Source: Candidatus Hydrogenedentota bacterium (GTDB lineage: Bacteria; UBA8481; J006). Taken from it: a DNA stretch of 57,520 nucleotides. Where the stretch lies: positions 1 through 57,520 of the forward strand of contig RFFU01000120.1 of the NCBI GenBank assembly GCA_003697085.1, in the 5' to 3' direction. Both the position numbers and the translations under genes were made by a program. This document shows positions 1 to 56,941 of the stretch, piece by piece (position 1 is the first letter of the stretch; every line of letters begins with the position of its first letter). The notes under the pieces are model-generated. The model searched no databases and was not told where the DNA came from. It worked only from the letters and a program-made list of their open reading frames with translations.

Positions 1-3000
1 CCCGAGAAGATCTCAGTATGATCCTGGCGCCGATGGCCGTCAGAGGCCAGGAACCCGTCGGCTCGATGGGGATGGACGTGCCCCTGGCGGTCCTTTCCGA
101 CAAGCCTCAACTCCTCTACAACTACTTTAAACAAACCTTTGCTCAAGTGACGAATCCCCCGATCGACCCGATCCGCGAGGAAGCCGTGATGTCCACGATG
201 ATCTGTGTCGGTGGTGAAGGAAACGTCCTCGATGAAAATCCGATGCAGTGCCACCAGATCGAACTCGAACAGCCGATATTGACGAACGAGGAGTTGGAAC
301 AGATCCGGCACTTCTCGATTCATCATTTTCGCACGATCACGCTTCCGATTCTGTACCACTGCGAGGAAGGAGGGAAACGCCTCCAGTATGCTCTCGACGA
401 ACTCTGTCGGCGCGCCTCGGACGCCGTCGCCGCCGGTTACTCGATCTTGATTCTTTCCGACCGGCACGTCGATGCCTTCCGGGCTCCCATCCCGGCGCTC
501 CTGGCCGTCGGTGCGGTCCACCAACATCTGATTCGCGAGGGGACGAGGACAAAGGTCGGCATTCTTCTTGAAAGCGGTGAACCTCGCGAGGTTCATCACT
601 TTGCCCTGCTGTTGGGGTATGGAGCCAGCGCCGTCAATCCCTATCTCGCGTTCGAGACGATCGACGAAATGGCTCGCACCGGCCAACTCGAACCCGGGCT
701 CACCCGTCGAAAGGCCCGCGAAAACTACGTCAAGGCCATCCGAAAAGGTCTTCTTAAGATCATGTCCAAGATGGGTATCTCGACGCTTCTCTCCTACCAC
801 GGGGCTCAGATATTCGAAGCGCTCGGAATCTCTCAGGAACTCATCGACCGTCACTTCACCGGAACCCCTTCGCGCATCGGAGGAATCGGAATGGATGTCA
901 TCGCCGAGGAATGCCGAATGCGGCACGAAAAGGCTTTCCCTCACGACGCCGATCCTCCCGACTTTCTCGACCCCGGCGGCGTCTACTTCTGGCGCCGGGA
1001 CGGGGAACGCCACATCATCAATCCGGAGACCGTCAGCCGCCTCCAGAAGGCCGTCACACTCGGATCCTTCGAAAACTATTTGGAATACGCTCGCATTATG
1101 AACGAGGAGGCCCAGCGCCTCACCACTCTTCGCTCCCTGTTGCGCTTCCGCCCCGGCCATCCGGTCCCCCTCGAAGAGGTAGAGCCGGCATCTGAAATCG
1201 TCAAGCGGTTCGTTACGGGCGCTATGTCTTTCGGCTCCATCAGTCGTGAAGCCCATACCACCCTGGCGATCGCGATGAACCGCATCGGTGGAAAATCGAA
1301 CACGGGCGAGGGCGGCGAGGATCCCGAACGCTTCCGCCCGTTGCCCAACGGAGACAGCGCCTGTTCCAAGATCAAGCAGGTCGCCTCAGGGCGGTTCGGA
1401 GTCACGACCGAATATCTGGTCAACGCCGAAGAACTCCAAATCAAGATCGCGCAAGGCGCGAAGCCGGGAGAAGGCGGGCAATTGCCGGGACACAAGGTGA
1501 ACGAGGAGATCGCCCGCGTGCGTCATTCGACGCCCGGCGTCGGACTCATCTCGCCTCCTCCCCATCACGATATCTATTCGATCGAAGACCTGGCACAGCT
1601 GATCTTCGATCTGCACAACGTCAACCCCGAAGCACGGGTGAGCGTGAAATTGGTTTCCGAAACCGGCGTCGGAACGATTGCCGCCGGAGTTTCCAAGGGG
1701 AAGGCGGATATGGTTCTCATCAGCGGCTACGACGGAGGAACCGGTGCCTCTCCCATATCTTCCATTCGGCACGCCGGAACTCCGTGGGAACTGGGGCTTT
1801 CCGAAACCCACCAGGTCCTTGTCCGCAACGACCTCCGAGGCCGCATCCGCGTCCAGGTCGATGGAAAACTCACTACCGGGCGGGACCTTGCTATTGCGGC
1901 GTTGTTGGGGGCCGAGGAATTCGGTTTCTCCACCTTCCCCCTCATTACGATGGGTTGTATAATGATGCGGAAATGTCATCTCAACACCTGCCCCGTCGGA
2001 ATTGCGACCCAGGATCCCGAACTGCGACGGAAATTTGCCGGAACACCGGAACGGGTTGTCAACTTCTTCTTCTTTCTGGCCGAGGATCTGCGTCGGATTA
2101 TGGCGGATCTTGGGTTCCGCACGGTCGATGAGATGGTAGGAAGAACCGACAGGCTGGAACCGGTCGAGACGGACCATTGGAAAGCAAAACACCTTGATCT
2201 CTCGGCCCTCCTCCACCGCCAGCGCGTTCCCCGATCCATTCCCGCACGCTGTGTCGCTCCGCAGGACCACGGCACCGCAGACGTTCTCGATAAGAAACTC
2301 ATTGCGTTGGCGAAACCGGCTCTGGAACGCGGCGAAAAAGTGCGCAAAGAACTTTCGATCCGCAACGTCGATCGCACCACGGGCACGATGCTTTCGGGAC
2401 AAATCGCCCGCCGGTACGGCCACGCGGGGCTCCCCGAGGACACGATACATTTCACCTTTCGTGGATCGGCGGGCCAGTCGTTTGGAGCGTGGGGCGCCGC
2501 CGGGCTCACCTTGGAACTCATCGGCGATGCCAACGACTACCTCGGGAAGGGACTCTCCGGGGCACGGATCATAGTAAAGCCGGAGGAAGAAGCCGCTTTC
2601 CTTCCCGAAGAAAATATCATCGTGGGGAACGTCGTCCTGTACGGAGCCATTTGCGGGGAACTCTTCGCGCGGGGGCGCGCGGGGGAGCGATTCGCCGTGC
2701 GGAATTCGGGAGCCCACGCCGTCGTTGAGGGGGTGGGTGACCATGGATGCGAATATATGACCGGCGGTCGCGTCATCGTTCTGGGCCCGACCGGAAGAAA
2801 TTTCGCCGCCGGGATGAGCGGGGGGATAGCCTATGTTTATGACGCCGACGGCACCTTCCCCGCAAAATGCAACACGGCGATGGTCGGTCTGGAATCTCTC
2901 GCGGAGGAAGAAGAAATCGCCTTCGTCAAGCAACTCATCGCCCGTCACATCCAATATACGGGGAGCACGCCGGGGCAAAAGATTCTCGACGCTTGGGATG

Positions 3001-3131
3001 ACGCCGTCGGTCGTTTCGTGAAGGTGATGCCGCACGATTACAAGAGAGTGCTTGCGGAACGTCGCCGGAAGGAAACGACGGAAGGCGTAAAGTCACAACC
3101 GGCCGTTGCCGTGGGCGCGGGAAAGGCATAG
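1..3131 (+). CDS. gltB: Glutamate synthase large (alpha) subunit, 5'-truncated by the window edge
   Basis: Synthase part of GOGAT, which makes glutamate from 2-oxoglutarate and glutamine-derived ammonia using FMN and a 3Fe-4S cluster. The frame is open from base 3, and the codons before the first ATG (base 18) already read REDLS as in the family, so the true start and the N-terminal class II amidotransferase domain lie outside the window. Visible are the central linker domain, the FMN-binding barrel ([10 protein letters not shown] near codon 435, [10 protein letters not shown] near 578), the iron-sulfur loop CHLNTCPVG near 658, and the C-terminal GXGXG beta-helix ([10 protein letters not shown]). 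It ends 5 nt before gltD, so the two form an operon for ammonia assimilation. Nothing looks degraded; only the edge truncates it. Confidence 0.97.
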
Positions 3132-3136
3132 GCGTT

Positions 3137-4564
3137 ATGGGTGATCCCCGCGGCTTTCTCACCATTGAACGGACCGCCTTTCGGAGGCGGCCGGTTGAAG
3201 AGAGAATTCGCGACTTCCGCGAGATCGAATTTCCGCAGCCCGAAGTGGAAGTGCGACGGCAGGGAGCGCGCTGTATGGATTGCGGGGTTCCCTTCTGCCA
3301 TTCCGGGTGTCCGCTCGGAAACCTTATTCCCGAATGGAACGATCTGGTCTATCGCGGACGCTTCGAAGAAGCGGTGGAACGGCTCCATGCCACGAACAAT
3401 TTCCCCGAGATCACCGGCCGCGTCTGCCCGGCTCCCTGCGAAACATCCTGCGTCCTTGGCATCAATGAACCGGCCGTTGCCATCAAACAGAACGAATACT
3501 TCATCGCCGAAAAAGCCTTTGATCTGGGCCTCGTTGTGCCTCGGCCGCCCACCTACCGAACGGGGAAACGCGTCGCGGTCATCGGAAGCGGCCCCGCCGG
3601 CCTGGCCGCCGCTCAGCAACTCAACCGTTTCGGACATACGGTTACACTCTTCGAACGCGCGGACCGGATCGGCGGCCTCCTTACTTACGGGATTCCCGAC
3701 TTCAAACTCTCCAAGTCCATCGTCCAACGCCGCCTCGACCAGATCCGAGCGGAAGGGGTGATCTTTCGAACGAACGCCGAGGTTGGAAAGAACGTGGAAT
3801 GCGACTGGGTTCGGAACGAATTCCATGCGATCATTCTCGCCGGCGGAGCCACGAAACCGCGCGATCTCTCCGTGCCGGGCCGTGACCTGCGCGGCATCCA
3901 TTTCGCGATGGAGTTTCTTCCCCAACAAAATCGTCGCGTTGCGGGAGAGATCATTCCCCCCGAGAAAAGCATTACCGCGGAGGGGAAAAACGTTGTCGTT
4001 ATCGGCGGGGGGGATACCGGAAGCGACTGCGTCGGAACTTCCATTCGCCAGAAGGCCGCCTCGGTCACCCAGATCGAGATCCTCCCGGAACCGCCCCGCG
4101 AACGAACATTGGAGAATCCCTGGCCCGAGTGGCCGCGGATCCTCCGGACCTCCTCTTCTCACGAAGAAGGCTGCAAGCGGCTCTGGTCCGTGAATACCAA
4201 AGCCTTCGAAGGTGAAGGGGGAAAGGTGCAGCGGCTCCGTTGCGTTAAAGTTGATTGGAAGAAGGACGCCTCGGGTCGTTTTCGAATGGAGGAAGTCCCG
4301 GGAAGCGAATTCACACTCGACGCCGATCTTGTTCTCCTCGCAATGGGCTTCCTTGGACCGGAAACGGACGGAATGCTTTCCCGCTTCGGCATTGCGCTCG
4401 ACAACCGCGGTAACGTCGCCACGGATATGCATTTTATGACGAATATTCCCGGAATCTTTGCGGCCGGAGATATGCGTCGCGGACAATCTCTCGTGGTGTG
4501 GGCGATCACCGAGGGGCGGCGAGCGGCCGCCGCGGCCCACCGTTACCTTAAGACGAAATTCTAA
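3137..4564 (+). CDS. gltD: Glutamate synthase small (beta) subunit
   Basis: NADPH-oxidising partner of GltB: electrons pass from NADPH through FAD and 4Fe-4S clusters to the alpha subunit. The N-terminal cysteine clusters are CMDCGVPFCHSGCP (residues 46-59) and CPAPCETSC (near 95). The FAD-binding motif GSGPAGLAAAQQ lies near residue 150 and the nucleotide motif GGGDTGSDC near 290. At 475 residues it has the usual family length. Position directly after gltB separates it from related glutamate synthase-like oxidoreductases such as the dihydropyrimidine dehydrogenase N-terminal domain and NfnB. The ATG follows gltB by five bases, so translational coupling is likely. Confidence 0.97.
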   Translation: MGDPRGFLTIERTAFRRRPVEERIRDFREIEFPQPEVEVRRQGARCMDCGVPFCHSGCPLGNLIPEWNDLVYRGRFEEAVERLHATNNFPEITGRVCPAPCETSCVLGINEPAVAIKQNEYFIAEKAFDLGLVVPRPPTYRTGKRVAVIGSGPAGLAAAQQLNRFGHTVTLFERADRIGGLLTYGIPDFKLSKSIVQRRLDQIRAEGVIFRTNAEVGKNVECDWVRNEFHAIILAGGATKPRDLSVPGRDLRGIHFAMEFLPQQNRRVAGEIIPPEKSITAEGKNVVVIGGGDTGSDCVGTSIRQKAASVTQIEILPEPPRERTLENPWPEWPRILRTSSSHEEGCKRLWSVNTKAFEGEGGKVQRLRCVKVDWKKDASGRFRMEEVPGSEFTLDADLVLLAMGFLGPETDGMLSRFGIALDNRGNVATDMHFMTNIPGIFAAGDMRRGQSLVVWAITEGRRAAAAAHRYLKTKF

Positions 4565-6298: not shown

Positions 6299-6690
6299 TT
6301 ACAGCCACGTAACCTGGTTTGAAGTGCTTTTTTTCTCCTCTGCATCATTCCAAGGCGTTAGCGCCAAGTAATTCTCTCCGGGTGGTATTCCGCACCCACG
6401 TGTCATTCCAAGTCCCTCGCATCCGCTCGGGACAGGCTTCACGAGGAAACCAATTGATCCGGTACCCCCTGCCGGGGTCGGGTTGGCTACCGTGATGGAT
6501 TCCTCGTCGGGCATCACGCCCGCCTCGGAATGACACCACGGACGAATCGGCAATTCGCAGACTGGAGAGTCTGCGCTCTACATCTCCTGTTCCATTTTTC
6601 CTTTTGCCTTTTGACTTTTGATTTTCTCTTTTTTCCGTGTCTTCCGTGGTTTCCCTTCTTCCCGCGTTTTCCGTGGTCTTGTTTGACCCC
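6299..6690 (-). repeat. Composite intergenic repeat array 1 (after the permease gene)
   Basis: The 604-base gap between the lipoprotein and permease genes holds no gene. Reading away from the permease stop it contains: ccacggaaaacgcg/ccacggaagacacgg units, a purine run of caaaagtcaaaaggcaaaagg type, an 18-nt hairpin with a GGAG loop (6557-6574), and a block running from gtgtcattccgag to gaggaatcc. The same modules in the same order recur at 23771-24204, 49050-49567 and 56370-56941. Confidence 0.85.
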
Positions 6691-6696
6691 CCGTTC

Positions 6697-7554
6697 TCAA
6701 TACGTTAGATACGTTCCCTCTCGCAGAAGAGCACGGTACCCCGATTCAAGGACAAACAAGCCCACCGGAAGATAAAGAAGGCTCTGAATCCCCAGAACCG
6801 TAAGAGCCGCAGTATCCCATCTGCCATGAGCGAGCAGCGCCCGCGCGGCGTTTATCGCGTGGGTCGCCGGGAGGAGTTCGGCAAATCGCTCGAGGAAATT
6901 CGGAAGGAGACTCACGGGAAAATAGACGCCCGTGAGAACCGCTCCCGCACCGCCGAGAATCGTCGCGACTCTCCCCAGTTTGCGCAACCTCATCTCCAGA
7001 CCCGCTTGGAAGAACCCCAAGCCCAAGGAAGCCGGGAGGGCGAGCAACAGGATCGGAATAACCGCCGCTAATCGTTCCAGACGAAGATGCCCTCCCAACG
7101 AAAGCAAAACGCTCAAGACAAAAACGGCCTTGAAAACGTTCTGTCCGATCTCACGAACGACAGACGCATTCAGAAGCGTCAGCAAGGAGATACGAAGACT
7201 CAAGATTATCTCCAACGTACCATTCCCGAATTCCCTCATCAGAAACGCTCTCGGCGCGTAAACCACCCCGGCTGTTGTGCCGTAAACCACCACGCCGATC
7301 ACGGCAAAGGTAAAGTAATCGCTTCCGTTGAGCAGTTTGGAATCGACGAGTTTCGCGACGTAGAAGAGCGCCACGAAGAAAAGGAGCGCAGAAAGGCCGC
7401 TGATGAGAAAACTGAGTCTGTAGGCGACACGACCCGCCATATCCCGCTCCATCAGAGCGTAGAGCGCCGTCCAGAAGTCTCTCCCCATTCCCCGCCGTCT
7501 CTCGGCTCGGCCGTGTCCCCCCGTCTTTTCCGTCATCGAAAAGAGCTCTTTCAC
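6697..7554 (-). CDS. ABC-2 type transporter permease
   Basis: Membrane subunit of an ABC exporter, about 285 residues with roughly six hydrophobic segments (e.g. LSFLISGLSALLFFVALFYV, TILGGAGAVLTGVYFPVSLL), the usual ABC-2 layout. The GTG at 7554 is preferred as start because it overlaps the ATPase stop as GTGA and has a GAGGGGGG-type Shine-Dalgarno a few bases upstream; the ATG at 7536 has none. Together with the adjacent ATPase it makes a two-gene exporter. The substrate is not evident; DrrB-type drug or lipid exporters and polysaccharide exporters share this fold. A repeat array starts within about 25 nt of its stop codon. Confidence 0.88.
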   Translation of the reverse strand: MKELFSMTEKTGGHGRAERRRGMGRDFWTALYALMERDMAGRVAYRLSFLISGLSALLFFVALFYVAKLVDSKLLNGSDYFTFAVIGVVVYGTTAGVVYAPRAFLMREFGNGTLEIILSLRISLLTLLNASVVREIGQNVFKAVFVLSVLLSLGGHLRLERLAAVIPILLLALPASLGLGFFQAGLEMRLRKLGRVATILGGAGAVLTGVYFPVSLLPNFLERFAELLPATHAINAARALLAHGRWDTAALTVLGIQSLLYLPVGLFVLESGYRALLREGTYLTY

Positions 7555-23497: not shown

Positions 23498-24204
23498 GGA
23501 AAAAGGATAGCAAGGTCGATCTCAAAAAGAAACCGAAAGCCTCCGGCGAGCGACCCGCTGGTCGCCCCCTCCCTCTTCTCCGCCCAGACAAGATGCCTGC
23601 GCTCCCCCCCCCTCCCTTGTTCATGTCCTTGCACTTGCCCTCGCCCTTGCCTTTGCCTTTCCGTCGTCTTCTTTCGTCGTTTTCGTCGTTTATCGATTTC
23701 CGTTTACCGTCTTTCGATTTTTTTCTGAACGCATTCGGAACACCCAAGAGTCTCTTCGCTGACAAAAGTGTCCACACCCCATATTGCGGCGAAAATGGCG
23801 CATGGGTTCTCCAACCTGCGGACGGCAAATCGTGCACTCGTGGAAGATTCCTCGTTGGGCTGCGCCCGCCTCGGAATGACACTACGGGCGGATCGCCCGT
23901 CGCCGCTACAAGCGCTGGTCGCGCCAGGAGGGCGACCGGCCGGTCGCCCCTACAGTCCGCGATCCAATCCATCCGCCTCCTTTTCTCCATCGTTTTTCGC
24001 AGACGAGAGAGTCTGTGCTCTACTCTCCCTTTTTCCTTTTCCTTTTTGCCTTTTGACTTTTGCCTTTCTCTTTCCGTGTCATTCCGTGTCTTCCGTGGTT
24101 TCATTCCTTCCGCTTACTTCGCGTTTTCCGTGGTTAACTGCCTTTCCGTGCGTTCCCGCAATACTGAAAGTGTCAAACTGTAAGAATGACCCCTTTTTTG
24201 ACTT
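23498..24204 (-). repeat. Composite repeat array 4 (between rplU and prp)
   Basis: The longest array. Reading away from the rplU stop: end module (24173-24204), ccacggaaaacgcg and ccacggaagacacgg units, the 7-bp purine repeat, a gcacagactctctcgtctgcg segment, the 20-bp palindrome at 23930-23949, a block from gtgtcattccgag to gaggaatc, and a GGAG-loop hairpin (23802-23819). The stretch 23780-24150 is nearly identical to 49170-49510. The part nearest prp (23560-23760) is polypyrimidine-rich and less ordered. No gene seen. Confidence 0.9.
23930..23949. repeat. Perfect 20-bp palindrome in array 4
   Basis: GGGCGACCGGCCGGTCGCCC is its own reverse complement. The matching site in the array after mfd (49323-49342) has one mismatch, and a more degenerate version is seen near 56606-56625. 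Confidence 0.85.
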
Positions 24205-37563: not shown

Positions 37564-38038
37564 AAAAAAGCCCCAACTCTCCACTTTCTCCCTCTCCTGG
37601 GTTTCCGCGTGTTCCGAGTCTTTCCGTCTGCTTGGTGGTTTACTTCGTTTCCTGTTTTTCGTCTTCCGGTCTTCGTTTTCCATTTTCAAACGTTTTTTCC
37701 CTTTTTCTTTTTGCCCTTTGCCTTTTGACTTTTGCCTTTTTCTCTTCCGTATCCTCCGTGTGCTCCGTGGTTCCACCTCGTCGGTGTATTCCGTGTTTTC
37801 CGTGGTCCCCCCTTCCGCGCGTCCGCGTTTTTGTTGTGGTTTCCCTCGTTTACCGTTCTTCATTCACCGTTTTCGTTTCTTCGCCGAAACCTTTTGGAAT
37901 GCCGACCCGTTCTTTCGCAAACTGGAGAGTCCGCGCTCCACATCTCCTGTTCCCTTTTTCCTTTTTCCTTTTGACTTTTGCCTTTCTCGTTTCCGTGTCT
38001 TCCGTGGTTCCCCTTCTTCCGCGTGCTCCGTGGTCGGG
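37564..38038 (-). repeat. Composite repeat array 6 (two tandem copies, after aroD)
   Basis: 475 bases without a gene. Reading away from the aroD stop: ccacggagcacgcgg and ccacggaagacacgg units start within about 10 nt of the stop, then the purine repeat, a GGAG-loop hairpin (37917-37934), and a second set of ccacggaaaacacgg units and purine repeat (37690-37815), ending near the AsmA-like gene stop. Confidence 0.85.
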
Positions 38039-46320: not shown

Positions 46321-49014
46321 ATGAGCGGGCTGCGCATTCGAGACCCCGGGCTGACCCTTTCGATGCTGAGGCATCTGAATGGGACAGGCAAAGTGGGCGC
46401 AAAAACGATGGAACAACTCGCCTCCGGAAGGCGTATCAATCGAGCAGCGGACGATGCGGCGGGACTCGCCATTTCCGAACTTCAGACAAGCCAAATCAAC
46501 GGAAAGATCCAGGCGGATCGGAATGTTCTCGACGGAGTCTCGCTCCTTCAAACCGCCGAGGGGGGATTGTCCACCATTACTGATCTGCTCCAACGAGCCC
46601 GGACTCTCTCTCTCCAAGCAGCGAACGACACGCTGGCTCTGACAGACCGGCAGGCCATCCAGAAGGAGATCAATCAGATCAACGCCGACATCGAACGGTT
46701 GGCGACCACGGTGGACTTCAACGGAAAGCCGCTGTTGACCGAGTTCAACCCGGGGAACCAAACGAAGATCACGACTCAGGCGGACTTCGAAGCGGGCACC
46801 GTTCCGCCTGAACTCGACTCGACCTCGACACCCGGCGATCTCAAACTGGCGACCGAACCCTATCAGGTCGATGCCCACCACGCCAACGCCGGTAACGAGA
46901 ACTATGTTTCCGTCGCCAAGATCGCCGTCAATCCGAACGGAAATCAATACGACGTGACGTTGGAACTGCGTTTTTCCGACGATTCCGGAACCGGTGGCCC
47001 CACCACGTTCGACGGTTCGATCACGATCAACAAGGGAAACATCACGGCCGTCGGTCCGCTGGGAGGAAACGAAGGCGGAGGCGGACTTGTCCAGGTTGGA
47101 AATACGGTCAATTTCAACATCAAGGAAGATGGCGGAAGTGGAAACGAGAGCACTTTCACGATCGATTTCACCACGACCAGCCTCGATGCCTCGTTCACGC
47201 TCGACTTGAACTCTCCCGTGGATCGCGGGATCAACCGTTATTTCAACAATACACTCATCCAAGGCGGCATTCCTCCCGGAAGTGTCACACAGAGATTCGA
47301 ACCGCTCGAGACAACGGGTACCTACACGAGCAAAATAATCGATCTCGGCGTCGATCGCCGCGCACGAATCGAATTCGATAACCAGCGCCCGACCGGAACT
47401 TCGCTTCGTTACTTCGTCCAGACAGCCGACGATCCTTCCGGCCCCTTCACGGCACCGACGGAAATCACGAACGGCGCGATCTTCAATTCCCCCAGCCGGT
47501 ATCTACGCGTCCTGACGCAGTTAGATACACCGGCCAGTTTCGCCGCGAACGGCATCGGACCGTCCCTGCAGGAAATCCGGGTCACTCCGCTCCAGGATAA
47601 CGACATAATTATTCAGGCTGACGCCAACCAGGGCGAGACGATCCTGCTCAATCTTCCGGACGTTACGACCTCGACCCTGGCGCTGACTGATATTGATGTC
47701 ACGACTCGAGCAGGCGATACGCTCTTCTCCCAAACGATCACTTCACAAAATGATTTCGAGAAGGGAACGCTCACCAATCTCAACACGCTTTTCACCCCCG
47801 GGGCCATCGAACTCGACACCCTTCCATTCGGCACCGAACCACCGCCGGCCAACAACGGTCAGGAACGCCTCGTCAGCGTCAATCGCCAATCCTCGACGGC
47901 CAACGCCAACGGAACGGTAACGACCACCGTACGCGTCGTCTCGGCATCGGACTCAACCAATCCAAACGACAACCCCCCGCCCGATCCCGGCCCGGGAAAC
48001 ACGGAGTACATCGGGCGGTTCAGCGTTATCGGCGGAACGTTGAACGATACCGACGGCGACGGCGTTCCGGATACCAACACCGTCTCGCCCGTCTCGCTCG
48101 AGGGATACGATCCCGGTAAGGATGGGGTTCCGCCGTTCTTCCACGGACAGTTCGGCAACTTCCAAGACGACTTGAACAACGCCGATCCTGGCTCCACTGT
48201 CTCGGCCGATCAATTTGTCGATTTTCGTCTGCGAACCGGTGGATTGCAGGATGGATTCGACGTGACCCTTTCGGGCCTTCCGAATATGCAGTTCCAACTC
48301 CAACTCTTTTCCGTCCAAGCCTACACCACTCCCTTCGCCCCGGTCGGCGACGCCGCCTACAACGTCTATTTCGGCGCCGGCAACATCCTGGCAACTCCGA
48401 CCGGCGCGGCAACGATCACCCAATCCTTCGAAAAACGCCAGCTGAGCGGAACTTACGAATCTCAGATTCTCGATATGGGAGAAGGCGGTCTCTTCCAGGT
48501 CGATTTCTCCGCTGTGACTCCCGGCAACACAGGCGTCACGATGGAGATCCGAACGAGCGATGATGGCATCAACTTCACATCGTATCAGGCGGTTGCCGAC
48601 GGTGGCCGGATCACGGCTCCGACCGAAAACCGGTACGTCCAGATCCGCGCTACGCTCACCGGTGATGCGGCGAACCGTTACATCTCACCGCAAGTGAACG
48701 ACATTACCGTCGCCCGCATCGCCTCGACCGACGGACCGACCGCGGCGATCGAAAAGTACACCGCGGCCATCGACCGCGTTGTCGAAGCCCGCGCCCAGAT
48801 CGGTGCCCAGGAGAACCGGCTTCGCTCGACGCGCGGCAACCTCGGTGTTATGACCGAGCGGCTTTCGGCGTCGCGCTCCAATATCGTCGATCTCGACTTC
48901 GCCGAGGCGACCATCCGGTTCGCCCGGACCCAAGTCCTCCAACAAGCGGGGACCGCCGCACTGAGCCAGGCGAACCTCCGGAACAACCTCGTCCTCCAAC
49001 TGCTGGGAACGTAA
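46321..49014 (+). CDS. fliC: Very large flagellin with a duplicated beta-rich insert
   Basis: Filament subunit, 897 residues against the usual 270-500. N-terminal D0/D1 (residues 1 to ~143) contains LASGRRINRAADDAAGLAIS; C-terminal D1/D0 (about 802-897) ends with LRNNLVLQLLGT. The ~655-residue insert holds two related units. Each has a DFE(A/K)GT motif (Asp155; Asp478) followed by a TPG segment, and a GTYxSxIxDxG motif (Gly333; Gly710) that starts a beta-sandwich with ...RYLRV/RYVQI strands. Unit 2 also has a DTDGDGVPD calcium-binding loop (576-584). Such inserts form the exposed face of the filament. No other flagellar gene is in the window. AAAGGAG lies about 14 bases upstream. Confidence 0.93.
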   Translation: MSGLRIRDPGLTLSMLRHLNGTGKVGAKTMEQLASGRRINRAADDAAGLAISELQTSQINGKIQADRNVLDGVSLLQTAEGGLSTITDLLQRARTLSLQAANDTLALTDRQAIQKEINQINADIERLATTVDFNGKPLLTEFNPGNQTKITTQADFEAGTVPPELDSTSTPGDLKLATEPYQVDAHHANAGNENYVSVAKIAVNPNGNQYDVTLELRFSDDSGTGGPTTFDGSITINKGNITAVGPLGGNEGGGGLVQVGNTVNFNIKEDGGSGNESTFTIDFTTTSLDASFTLDLNSPVDRGINRYFNNTLIQGGIPPGSVTQRFEPLETTGTYTSKIIDLGVDRRARIEFDNQRPTGTSLRYFVQTADDPSGPFTAPTEITNGAIFNSPSRYLRVLTQLDTPASFAANGIGPSLQEIRVTPLQDNDIIIQADANQGETILLNLPDVTTSTLALTDIDVTTRAGDTLFSQTITSQNDFEKGTLTNLNTLFTPGAIELDTLPFGTEPPPANNGQERLVSVNRQSSTANANGTVTTTVRVVSASDSTNPNDNPPPDPGPGNTEYIGRFSVIGGTLNDTDGDGVPDTNTVSPVSLEGYDPGKDGVPPFFHGQFGNFQDDLNNADPGSTVSADQFVDFRLRTGGLQDGFDVTLSGLPNMQFQLQLFSVQAYTTPFAPVGDAAYNVYFGAGNILATPTGAATITQSFEKRQLSGTYESQILDMGEGGLFQVDFSAVTPGNTGVTMEIRTSDDGINFTSYQAVADGGRITAPTENRYVQIRATLTGDAANRYISPQVNDITVARIASTDGPTAAIEKYTAAIDRVVEARAQIGAQENRLRSTRGNLGVMTERLSASRSNIVDLDFAEATIRFARTQVLQQAGTAALSQANLRNNLVLQLLGT

Positions 49015-49049: not shown

Positions 49050-49567
49050 TTTGCTCTCGCCCTCATCCTTGCCCTTTTTTCCGGCATTCCCTGATTTGTG
49101 TTTCCGCGCTCTTCCGCACCGCTTTTTCGTACTCTTCCGCACCGTTCTTCACAGACAAGAGCGGCGGCGCCCCAAAATACCGCGAAGATGGAGCATAGGT
49201 TCTCCAACCTGCGGAGGGCGAATCGTGCACTCGTGGGGGATTCCTCGTCGGGCTGCGCCCGCCTCGGAATGACACCACGGGCGGATCGCCCGTCGCCTCT
49301 ACAAGCGCTGGTCGTGCCAGGAGGGCAACCGGCCGGTCGCCCCTACAGTCCGCGATCCATCCGCCTCCTTTCCTCCATCGTTTTTCGCAGACGAGAGAGT
49401 CTGTGCTCTCCCCTTTTCCTTTTGCCGTTTGACTTTTGCCATTTGATTTTTGCCTTTTGCCTTTTTCCTTTTCCGTGTCTTCCGTGTGCTCCGTGGTTCC
49501 CTCCCTTCCGTGCCCTCCGTGTACTCCGGCCGCGAAATTGACAAATTGGAAGAATAACACCTTTTTT
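49050..49567 (-). repeat. Composite repeat array 7 (after mfd)
   Basis: No gene in the 553-base gap between convergent flagellin and mfd. Reading away from the mfd stop: end module (49538-49567), ccacggagcacacgg/ccacggaa units, purine repeat, gcacagactctctcgtctgcg, palindromic block (49323-49342), the block ending gaggaatcc, and a GGAG-loop hairpin (49195-49212). Nearly identical over ~350 bases to array 4. Confidence 0.9.
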
Positions 49568-55349: not shown

Positions 55350-55520
55350 ACACGGAACAACTCGAAACCTCACGGAAGATCAAAGAAACCACGGAATGCG
55401 CGGAAGAACACGGAAAATGAGAAAGGCAAAAGTCAAAGGGAAAAAGGAAAAAGGGAGAGTAAAGCACAGACCCTCTCGTCTGCGAAGCACCGAACCGCCA
55501 ATCGCTCCCCGGTCGGCCGA
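55350..55520 (+). repeat. Composite repeat array 8 (after the phosphoesterase gene)
   Basis: Cacggaa, ccacggaatgcgcgg and acacggaa units, then the purine run (caaaagtcaaagg) and gcacagaccctctcgtctgcg, reading away from the stop codon. The later modules are missing or degraded. Confidence 0.8.
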
Positions 55521-56369: not shown

Positions 56370-56941
56370 TATACCTGATCTGACCGAAACCACGAAAGGA
56401 AAAAGCGCGGAGCAGACAGCAGTGATGGGAACCACGGAATGTGCGGAAGAACACGGAAGGAGAGGAAGGCAAAAGGCAAAAGGCAAAAGGCAAAAGGCAA
56501 AAGGCAAAAGGAAGAAGGGAGAGTAGAGCACAGACTCTCTCGTCTGCGAGAAACGGCGGAGAAAAGGAGGCGAATGGATTGGCTCGCGGACTGTACAGGC
56601 CGACCAGCCGGTCGCCCTCTTGGCACAACCACCGCTTGCAGCGGCCACCGCCGATCCGCCCGTGGTGTCATTCCGAACAGACCGCGGGCCGACGAAAAAT
56701 TTCCCACACGCATCGTCATTCCGAGCGAACGCGAGGAATCCCCCACGAATGCGAATCAGTGCCCGTTGCGGGATACAACGTGGCGGGGATTCCTCGTCGG
56801 CGTCGCTCCGCGCCGCCTCGCTCGGAATGACAGTGGTGGTGTCGGGTTTCGCGCTCCTCGGAATAACAAGGAAAACGGGTGAGTGCCGCTTCCGCAGGTT
56901 GGAGAACCTGCGCTCCCCTTCCTGCAGGCAAGATGCCTGCG
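56370..56941 (+). repeat. Composite repeat array 9 (after vapC)
   Basis: No gene in the 676-base gap after vapC. Modules in order: ccacggaa units (56432), six perfect copies of AGGCAAA (56467-56508), gcacagactctctcgtctgcg, degenerate palindromic block near 56606-56625, gtgtcattccga to gaggaatcc block in two copies, one of them inverted, a GGAG-loop hairpin (56894-56911) and gcaggcaagatgcctgc. The last module touches the stop codon of the convergent membrane-protein gene. Confidence 0.88.
56467..56508 (+). repeat. Six perfect tandem copies of AGGCAAA
   Basis: Pure 7-bp repeat, 42 bases, with a partial seventh unit. Other arrays carry the same period with AGGCAAA/AGTCAAA variants. Confidence 0.95.

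Follow-up and report, generated by a model that had tools for sequence, protein, structure and literature searches.

A large flagellin of a Candidatus Hydrogenedentota bacterium with homologous modules assigned to two separate loops of its D1 domain

The giant flagellins of Oceanospirillales such as Bermanella and Oleibacter form thick filaments (Thomson et al. 2018, PMC6248924). In that work giant denotes more than 1,000 amino acids and 'large' more than 800, and the folding of the repeats that fill the outer region (DE) was left open by the authors. PMC5895748 compares four multi-domain flagellins, in all of which the outer domains exit D1 only after the D1 β-hairpin (residues 169–173 or 178–185 in B. 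cereus numbering); this position, here called site 2, is where the D2/D3 domains or insertional fusion sites of these flagellins lie. Published flagellinolysins carry a gluzincin peptidase with HExxH and a distal Glu (PMC5595980). There are precedents for large flagellins, for internal duplication of outer modules and for single inserts at either D1 loop; homologous modules in both loops of one flagellin were not found described in the open-access literature searched.

The flagellin analysed here, designated P0001, is encoded in a 57,520 bp stretch of contig RFFU01000120.1, the whole of which is referred to as the window (Table 1). At 897 amino acids it was large by the definition in PMC6248924 and below the giant threshold. 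Pfam analysis revealed Flagellin_N (PF00669) on residues 12–141 (E=2.1e-30, 106 bits against a cut-off of 26.6) and Flagellin_C (PF00700) on residues 812–895 (E=1.5e-18, 67 bits against a cut-off of 23), which confirmed the conserved flagellin ends reported in a first-pass annotation of this DNA. Between the two there was no Pfam family above its cut-off, and no D2/D3 family was recognised. The protein starts with MSGLRIR, like the flagellins of its own genome (MSGLRIRTN or MSGLRIRD), and its core and C-terminus were canonical, with ~45–50% identity to the short flagellins of that genome. Judged from its sequence, the D0/D1 core of P0001 is intact and is opened at two loops.

Table 1. Features of the P0001 locus (window coordinates; residues are those of P0001)
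Feature	Position	Strand	Basis
P0001 flagellin ORF, 897 aa	46321..49014	+	single uninterrupted ORF with flagellin N and C regions
Flagellin N-terminal core (N part of D0/D1), residues 1–147, ending in FNGKPLLTEFNPGNQ	46321..46761	+	Pfam Flagellin_N
Site-1 module (unit 1), residues 148–425, 278 aa	46762..47595	+	core HMM broken between profile positions 143 and 146
Unit 1 first lobe, residues 190–329, predicted Ig/cohesin-like β-sandwich	46888..47307	+	model residues 46–185, block pLDDT ~54–84
Unit 1 second lobe, residues 330–424, GTYxSxIxDxG domain	47308..47592	+	model pLDDT up to 91; profile A6
D1 β-hairpin of the flagellin core (~residues 426–467) and short linker to 472	47596..47736	+	four comparisons
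Site-2 module (unit 2), residues 473–803, ~331 aa	47737..48729	+	homology to unit 1, p ~6e-10
DTDGDGVPD, residues 576–584 of unit 2, candidate calcium-binding loop	48046..48072	+	sequence motif only
Unit 2 second lobe (GTYxS domain), residues 697–803	48409..48729	+	PHROG 3475 minor tail protein, E=3.9e-8
Flagellin C-terminal core (C part of D1/D0), residues 804–897, and stop	48730..49014	+	Pfam Flagellin_C
Copies of intergenic repeat	6553-6704, 23753-24126, 37700-38035, 49146-49515, 55415-55486, 56466-56707		

The region between the flagellin ends contains an internal duplication. The motif DFExGT occurred twice, at residues 155 and 478, 323 residues apart, and GTYxSxIxDxG likewise, at 333 and 710, 377 residues apart. 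The two units aligned end to end with 88 identities in 266 aligned residues, the alignment scoring 180 against a mean of 48 (sd 8) for shuffled sequences (Gumbel p ~6e-10). Two units with these offsets had been proposed previously, and the motif positions and shuffling agreed with this. The site-2 module was longer than the site-1 module in all five family members measured (319–357 aa versus 274–288 aa). The previous annotation had attributed the difference in P0001 to one ~54-residue insertion in unit 2 holding a calcium loop. This did not hold, as the extra length was scattered over several places and the DTDGDG stretch faced FDGSITIN of unit 1 in the alignments, outside the gap. No Pfam calcium-repeat family matched at DTDGDGVPD.

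The stretch between the two units (NDIIIQADANQGETILLNLPDVTTSTLALTDIDVTTRA) was compared with other flagellins in four ways. It aligned with three flagellins, one of which, a 276-aa protein from the same genome, matched through its residues 151–184 (p=8e-6). An HMM built from 24 short flagellins matched P0001 in three pieces, with profile positions 10–143 on residues 11–144, 146–186 on 427–465 and 177–277 on 796–896. Residues 655–697 of the solved flagellin 9au6, which form its hairpin, aligned with residues 417–460 of P0001. Lastly, the equivalent stretches from the dual-site family described below were made into a profile, which matched the short-flagellin profile at its hairpin columns with E=4.4e-6; the hairpin piece by itself was weak in single members of the family (i-E 0.009–0.1). 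On these alignments, residues ~426–467 are assigned to the core D1 β-hairpin, which parts site 1, the loop that leads from the N-terminal D1 helices to the hairpin, from site 2, the canonical D2/D3 insertion position after it. Because the hairpin stands between the units, the central region comprises one insert of 278 residues and another of ~331, and not the single 655-residue insert with tandem units that had first been suggested; the units occupy two different D1 loops.

An AlphaFold model of unit 1 (ma172711b224d, seven rows; mean pLDDT 67.5, residues 1–38 of the model unreliable) showed two β-sandwich lobes, and a model of the whole protein (two rows) had a pLDDT of 38.6. The best structural match of the first lobe, a model of moderate pLDDT, was the fibrillar-adhesin domain 9ifr (VIA-align; Z 9.4, 116 residues, rmsd 3.3 Å), followed by many rows of pilins, MSCRAMMs and cohesins at Z 7–8. 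Values of Z between 7 and 9.4 are common among β-sandwiches, so the first lobe is credibly placed in the Ig/cohesin-type fold class by its model and is not given a family.

The second lobe was homologous to a phage minor-tail-type GTYxS domain for which there is no Pfam model. Its profile, A6, covers residues 320–424 and 697–803 of P0001 together with L053, L055, L056, L058, L059, L060, L061, L068, L096 and L097, and scored phage minor tail proteins at 47–54 bits; those with the domain included proteins of Bacillus phage BSTP12 and Weizmannia phage Youna2. The domain recurred in secreted proteins that carry FG-GAP-like repeats, in other large surface proteins, and matched residues 1044–1148 of the solved chain 9euf_0 weakly, with the whole domain covered (i-E 0.0011). 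More generally, A6 describes a widespread extracellular domain of ~100 aa, common to secreted proteins and phage minor tail proteins, with the pattern GxYxSxxxDxG ... PxGTxxxxxxRTSxDG ... RYxQxRxxL ... P. It was also encoded on two viral contigs from IMG/VR (L099, 401–694; L100, 401–691), and one bacterial contig (L061, genome G182) encoded it together with the unit-start motif SQADWxxxGxxxNLDTxSSPGDVKL, so that the two motifs of the flagellin units are found together outside flagellins. BLIP-II was dropped as a relative, its weak partial matches being chance repeats of a W-containing motif. An identity as F5/8 type C (discoidin) or carbohydrate-binding module was likewise rejected, with F5_F8_type_C at 15.5–16.4 bits (16.4 for unit 2) against a Pfam cut-off of 28.2. 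The earlier view of the units as secreted adhesion or carbohydrate-binding β-sandwich modules thus stood as far as a duplicated module with secreted and adhesin-like pieces in place of D2/D3 is concerned; its carbohydrate-binding part stayed below the Pfam cut-off. The module was not found elsewhere in the source genome, in the plasmid collection or, when the full site-1 module was used, in the viral-contig scans. The phage collection matched with the second lobe alone, in minor tail proteins, and the complete two-lobe unit was seen only in flagellins in the genomes searched.

Taken as a whole, P0001 is probably a flagellin that assembles and that displays a homologous two-lobed module outwards from each of two D1 loops, with contact with surfaces, polymers or other cells as the likeliest role. 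As its core and C-terminus are canonical, it would be exported and would then copolymerise with the short flagellins of its genome. Each subunit is predicted to show two outer modules, amounting to four β-sandwich lobes, from two neighbouring anchor points, which would give a thickened filament with a surface of adhesin-like modules. Adhesion by these modules is plausible, and the main rival to it is a purely structural role, in which the modules do not bind a partner and pack within or between subunits to form an outer sheath, making the filament stiffer or thicker after the manner of giant flagellins and of D2/D3 ridges that interact. We regard this as a serious possibility, although one with a lesser claim. 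In its favour, the filaments of giant flagellins are thick (PMC6248924), P. aeruginosa depends on networks of outer domains to move in viscous media (PMC10256154), and both modules were kept in all six family members despite divergence to ~20–30% identity, as packing units would be. The lobe folds and the occurrence of relatives of the second lobe in adhesin-like and phage tail proteins speak against a structural role, though a shared fold proves no function.

The gene for P0001 stands alone between glycolytic genes and mfd, away from other flagellar genes, and the source genome (145 contigs) also encodes several short flagellins; for these two reasons P0001 is probably a minor component of the filament, whereas the first-pass annotation had envisaged a filament built of such subunits and bearing thousands of the domains. 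The same isolation and the same company of other flagellins would suit a secreted paralogue that does not assemble, a decoy or effector exported via the flagellar system, as would the diverged C-termini of the relatives of P0001 in another phylum. P0001 itself has the D0/D1 core and C-terminus of a canonical flagellin, at the identity to the short flagellins given above, and we consider such a paralogue improbable. A perfect GCCGATAA, resembling a sigma-28 promoter, was present ~320 bases upstream of the gene; it was discounted because four such boxes occurred in the window versus 1.7 expected, which is no better than chance. The window also contained a dispersed family of intergenic repeats, with copies of up to 214 bp that were ~80–90% alike and lay in both orientations. 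One copy was directly downstream of the flagellin gene.

A profile of both units revealed one other dual-site flagellin in 386 genomes (~327 genera), in genome G257. A site-1 profile then added flagellins of G120, G386 and G387 and a second copy in G257, all with site-1 modules homologous to that of P0001. This gave five further dual-site flagellins of 880–923 aa in four genomes, each with both modules and all from a phylum other than that of P0001; one is recorded under accession JAJRTR010000165.1 (MAG 'Dive96_bin1.91'). Four of the seven genomes of that phylum that were examined carried a dual-site flagellin and three did not. A census covered 77 flagellin-like ORFs in which both ends were present; it was drawn from searches seeded with P0001, and so not a random sample of flagellins, and included 42 with a span of at least 380. 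Three core pieces were found in just six of these, P0001 and its five relatives; the other 36 had two core pieces, with a single insert at site 1 or site 2 or, in some FlgL/FlgK-like ORFs, with the hairpin absent. One genome, G017, encoded three related flagellins of ~900 aa (L039, L040 and L041), in all of which site 1 held one insert of ~620 aa; this genome was not matched by the module profiles of the P0001 family.

The arrangement in these relatives also bears on the reading of the central region as one hypervariable insert with an ordinary tandem duplication, like DE1-DE2 of the Oceanospirillales, in which the stretch between the units is a mere linker. The units are homologous and only ~47 residues apart, and PMC6248924 provides a precedent for tandem duplication. 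However, that stretch was matched to the D1 hairpin by all four comparisons, no other counterpart of the hairpin of the short flagellins was found elsewhere in P0001, and the arrangement was identical in the five relatives. A tandem repeat within a single insert was accordingly excluded as a candidate, and on sequence grounds this reading is already largely refuted and very unlikely. That P0001 is a chimeric ORF produced by assembly or binning of a metagenome-derived genome split over 145 contigs is hardly credible, as the ORF is uninterrupted and its three-segment layout recurs in five independent flagellins on other contigs.

In a tree of D0/D1 cores, P0001 grouped with the flagellins of its own genome (97/85), and the four other dual-site flagellins included formed a clade of their own (98/97). 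The dual-site cores therefore fall, by this phylogeny, into two lineages, and either the central region was exchanged between the lineages or the dual insertion occurred twice. In a tree of the modules, those from site 1 separated from those from site 2 with weak support (68/57); grouping the two modules of P0001 itself as sisters was not rejected (p-AU 0.45).

These findings split two insertion sites that are usually lumped as "the hypervariable region", a distinction that matters for flagellin annotation and wherever flagellin serves as a display scaffold. The flagellin D1 domain apparently tolerates large folded inserts at two loops simultaneously, and copies of one module occupy both loops in two lineages, a natural experiment in outer-domain pairing and packing. 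More tentatively, the dual-site flagellins may represent a distinct class with a built-in pair of homologous modules at two D1 anchors, forming a paired-module sheath and having arisen or been exchanged in at least two phyla. If true, the sheath would be the intramolecular counterpart of outer-domain dimerisation.

Among known proteins, phage minor tail proteins (PHROG 3475) and secreted FG-GAP-type proteins have the lobe-2 domain in common with P0001 and are not flagellins. Flagellinolysins (PMC5595980) resemble P0001 in having a foreign functional domain placed within a flagellin; they have one insert and P0001 has two. HExxH was absent from the P0001 translation and Pfam revealed no peptidase family in it. 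Two further insertions were observed in other flagellins. The source genome of P0001 encodes a 531-aa flagellin (L042; contig C123 of G000, 2216–3808, +) with a matrixin-type metalloprotease at site 1 (Pfam Peptidase_M10, E=1e-22; motif HEIGHALGLGHD), which, since published flagellinolysins are gluzincins, appears to be a protease-flagellin fusion that arose separately and belongs to a different peptidase class. Genome G053 encodes a 635-aa flagellin (L045; 1690–3594, +) with a site-1 insert of repeated TSDGGYI/SDGG-type blades, which suggests a β-propeller on a flagellin; apart from a weak CarboxypepD_reg match, Pfam recognised only its flagellin ends.

The Oceanospirillales giant flagellins share with P0001 a large size, an outer region derived from internal duplication of a module and a predicted thick filament. 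Compared by layout, their DE repeats lie in tandem in one central insert whereas the copies in P0001 lie in two D1 loops; its duplicated outer modules are not contiguous within one insertion, as the core hairpin intervenes. The solved 793-aa flagellin 9au6 and similar large flagellins in the census have an insert at site 1, as P0001 does, but their site 2 is empty. Salmonella FliC and P. aeruginosa FliC share with P0001 the D0/D1 core and outer domains that follow the D1 hairpin at site 2; unlike the flagellins of PMC5895748, P0001 carries a second insert before the hairpin.
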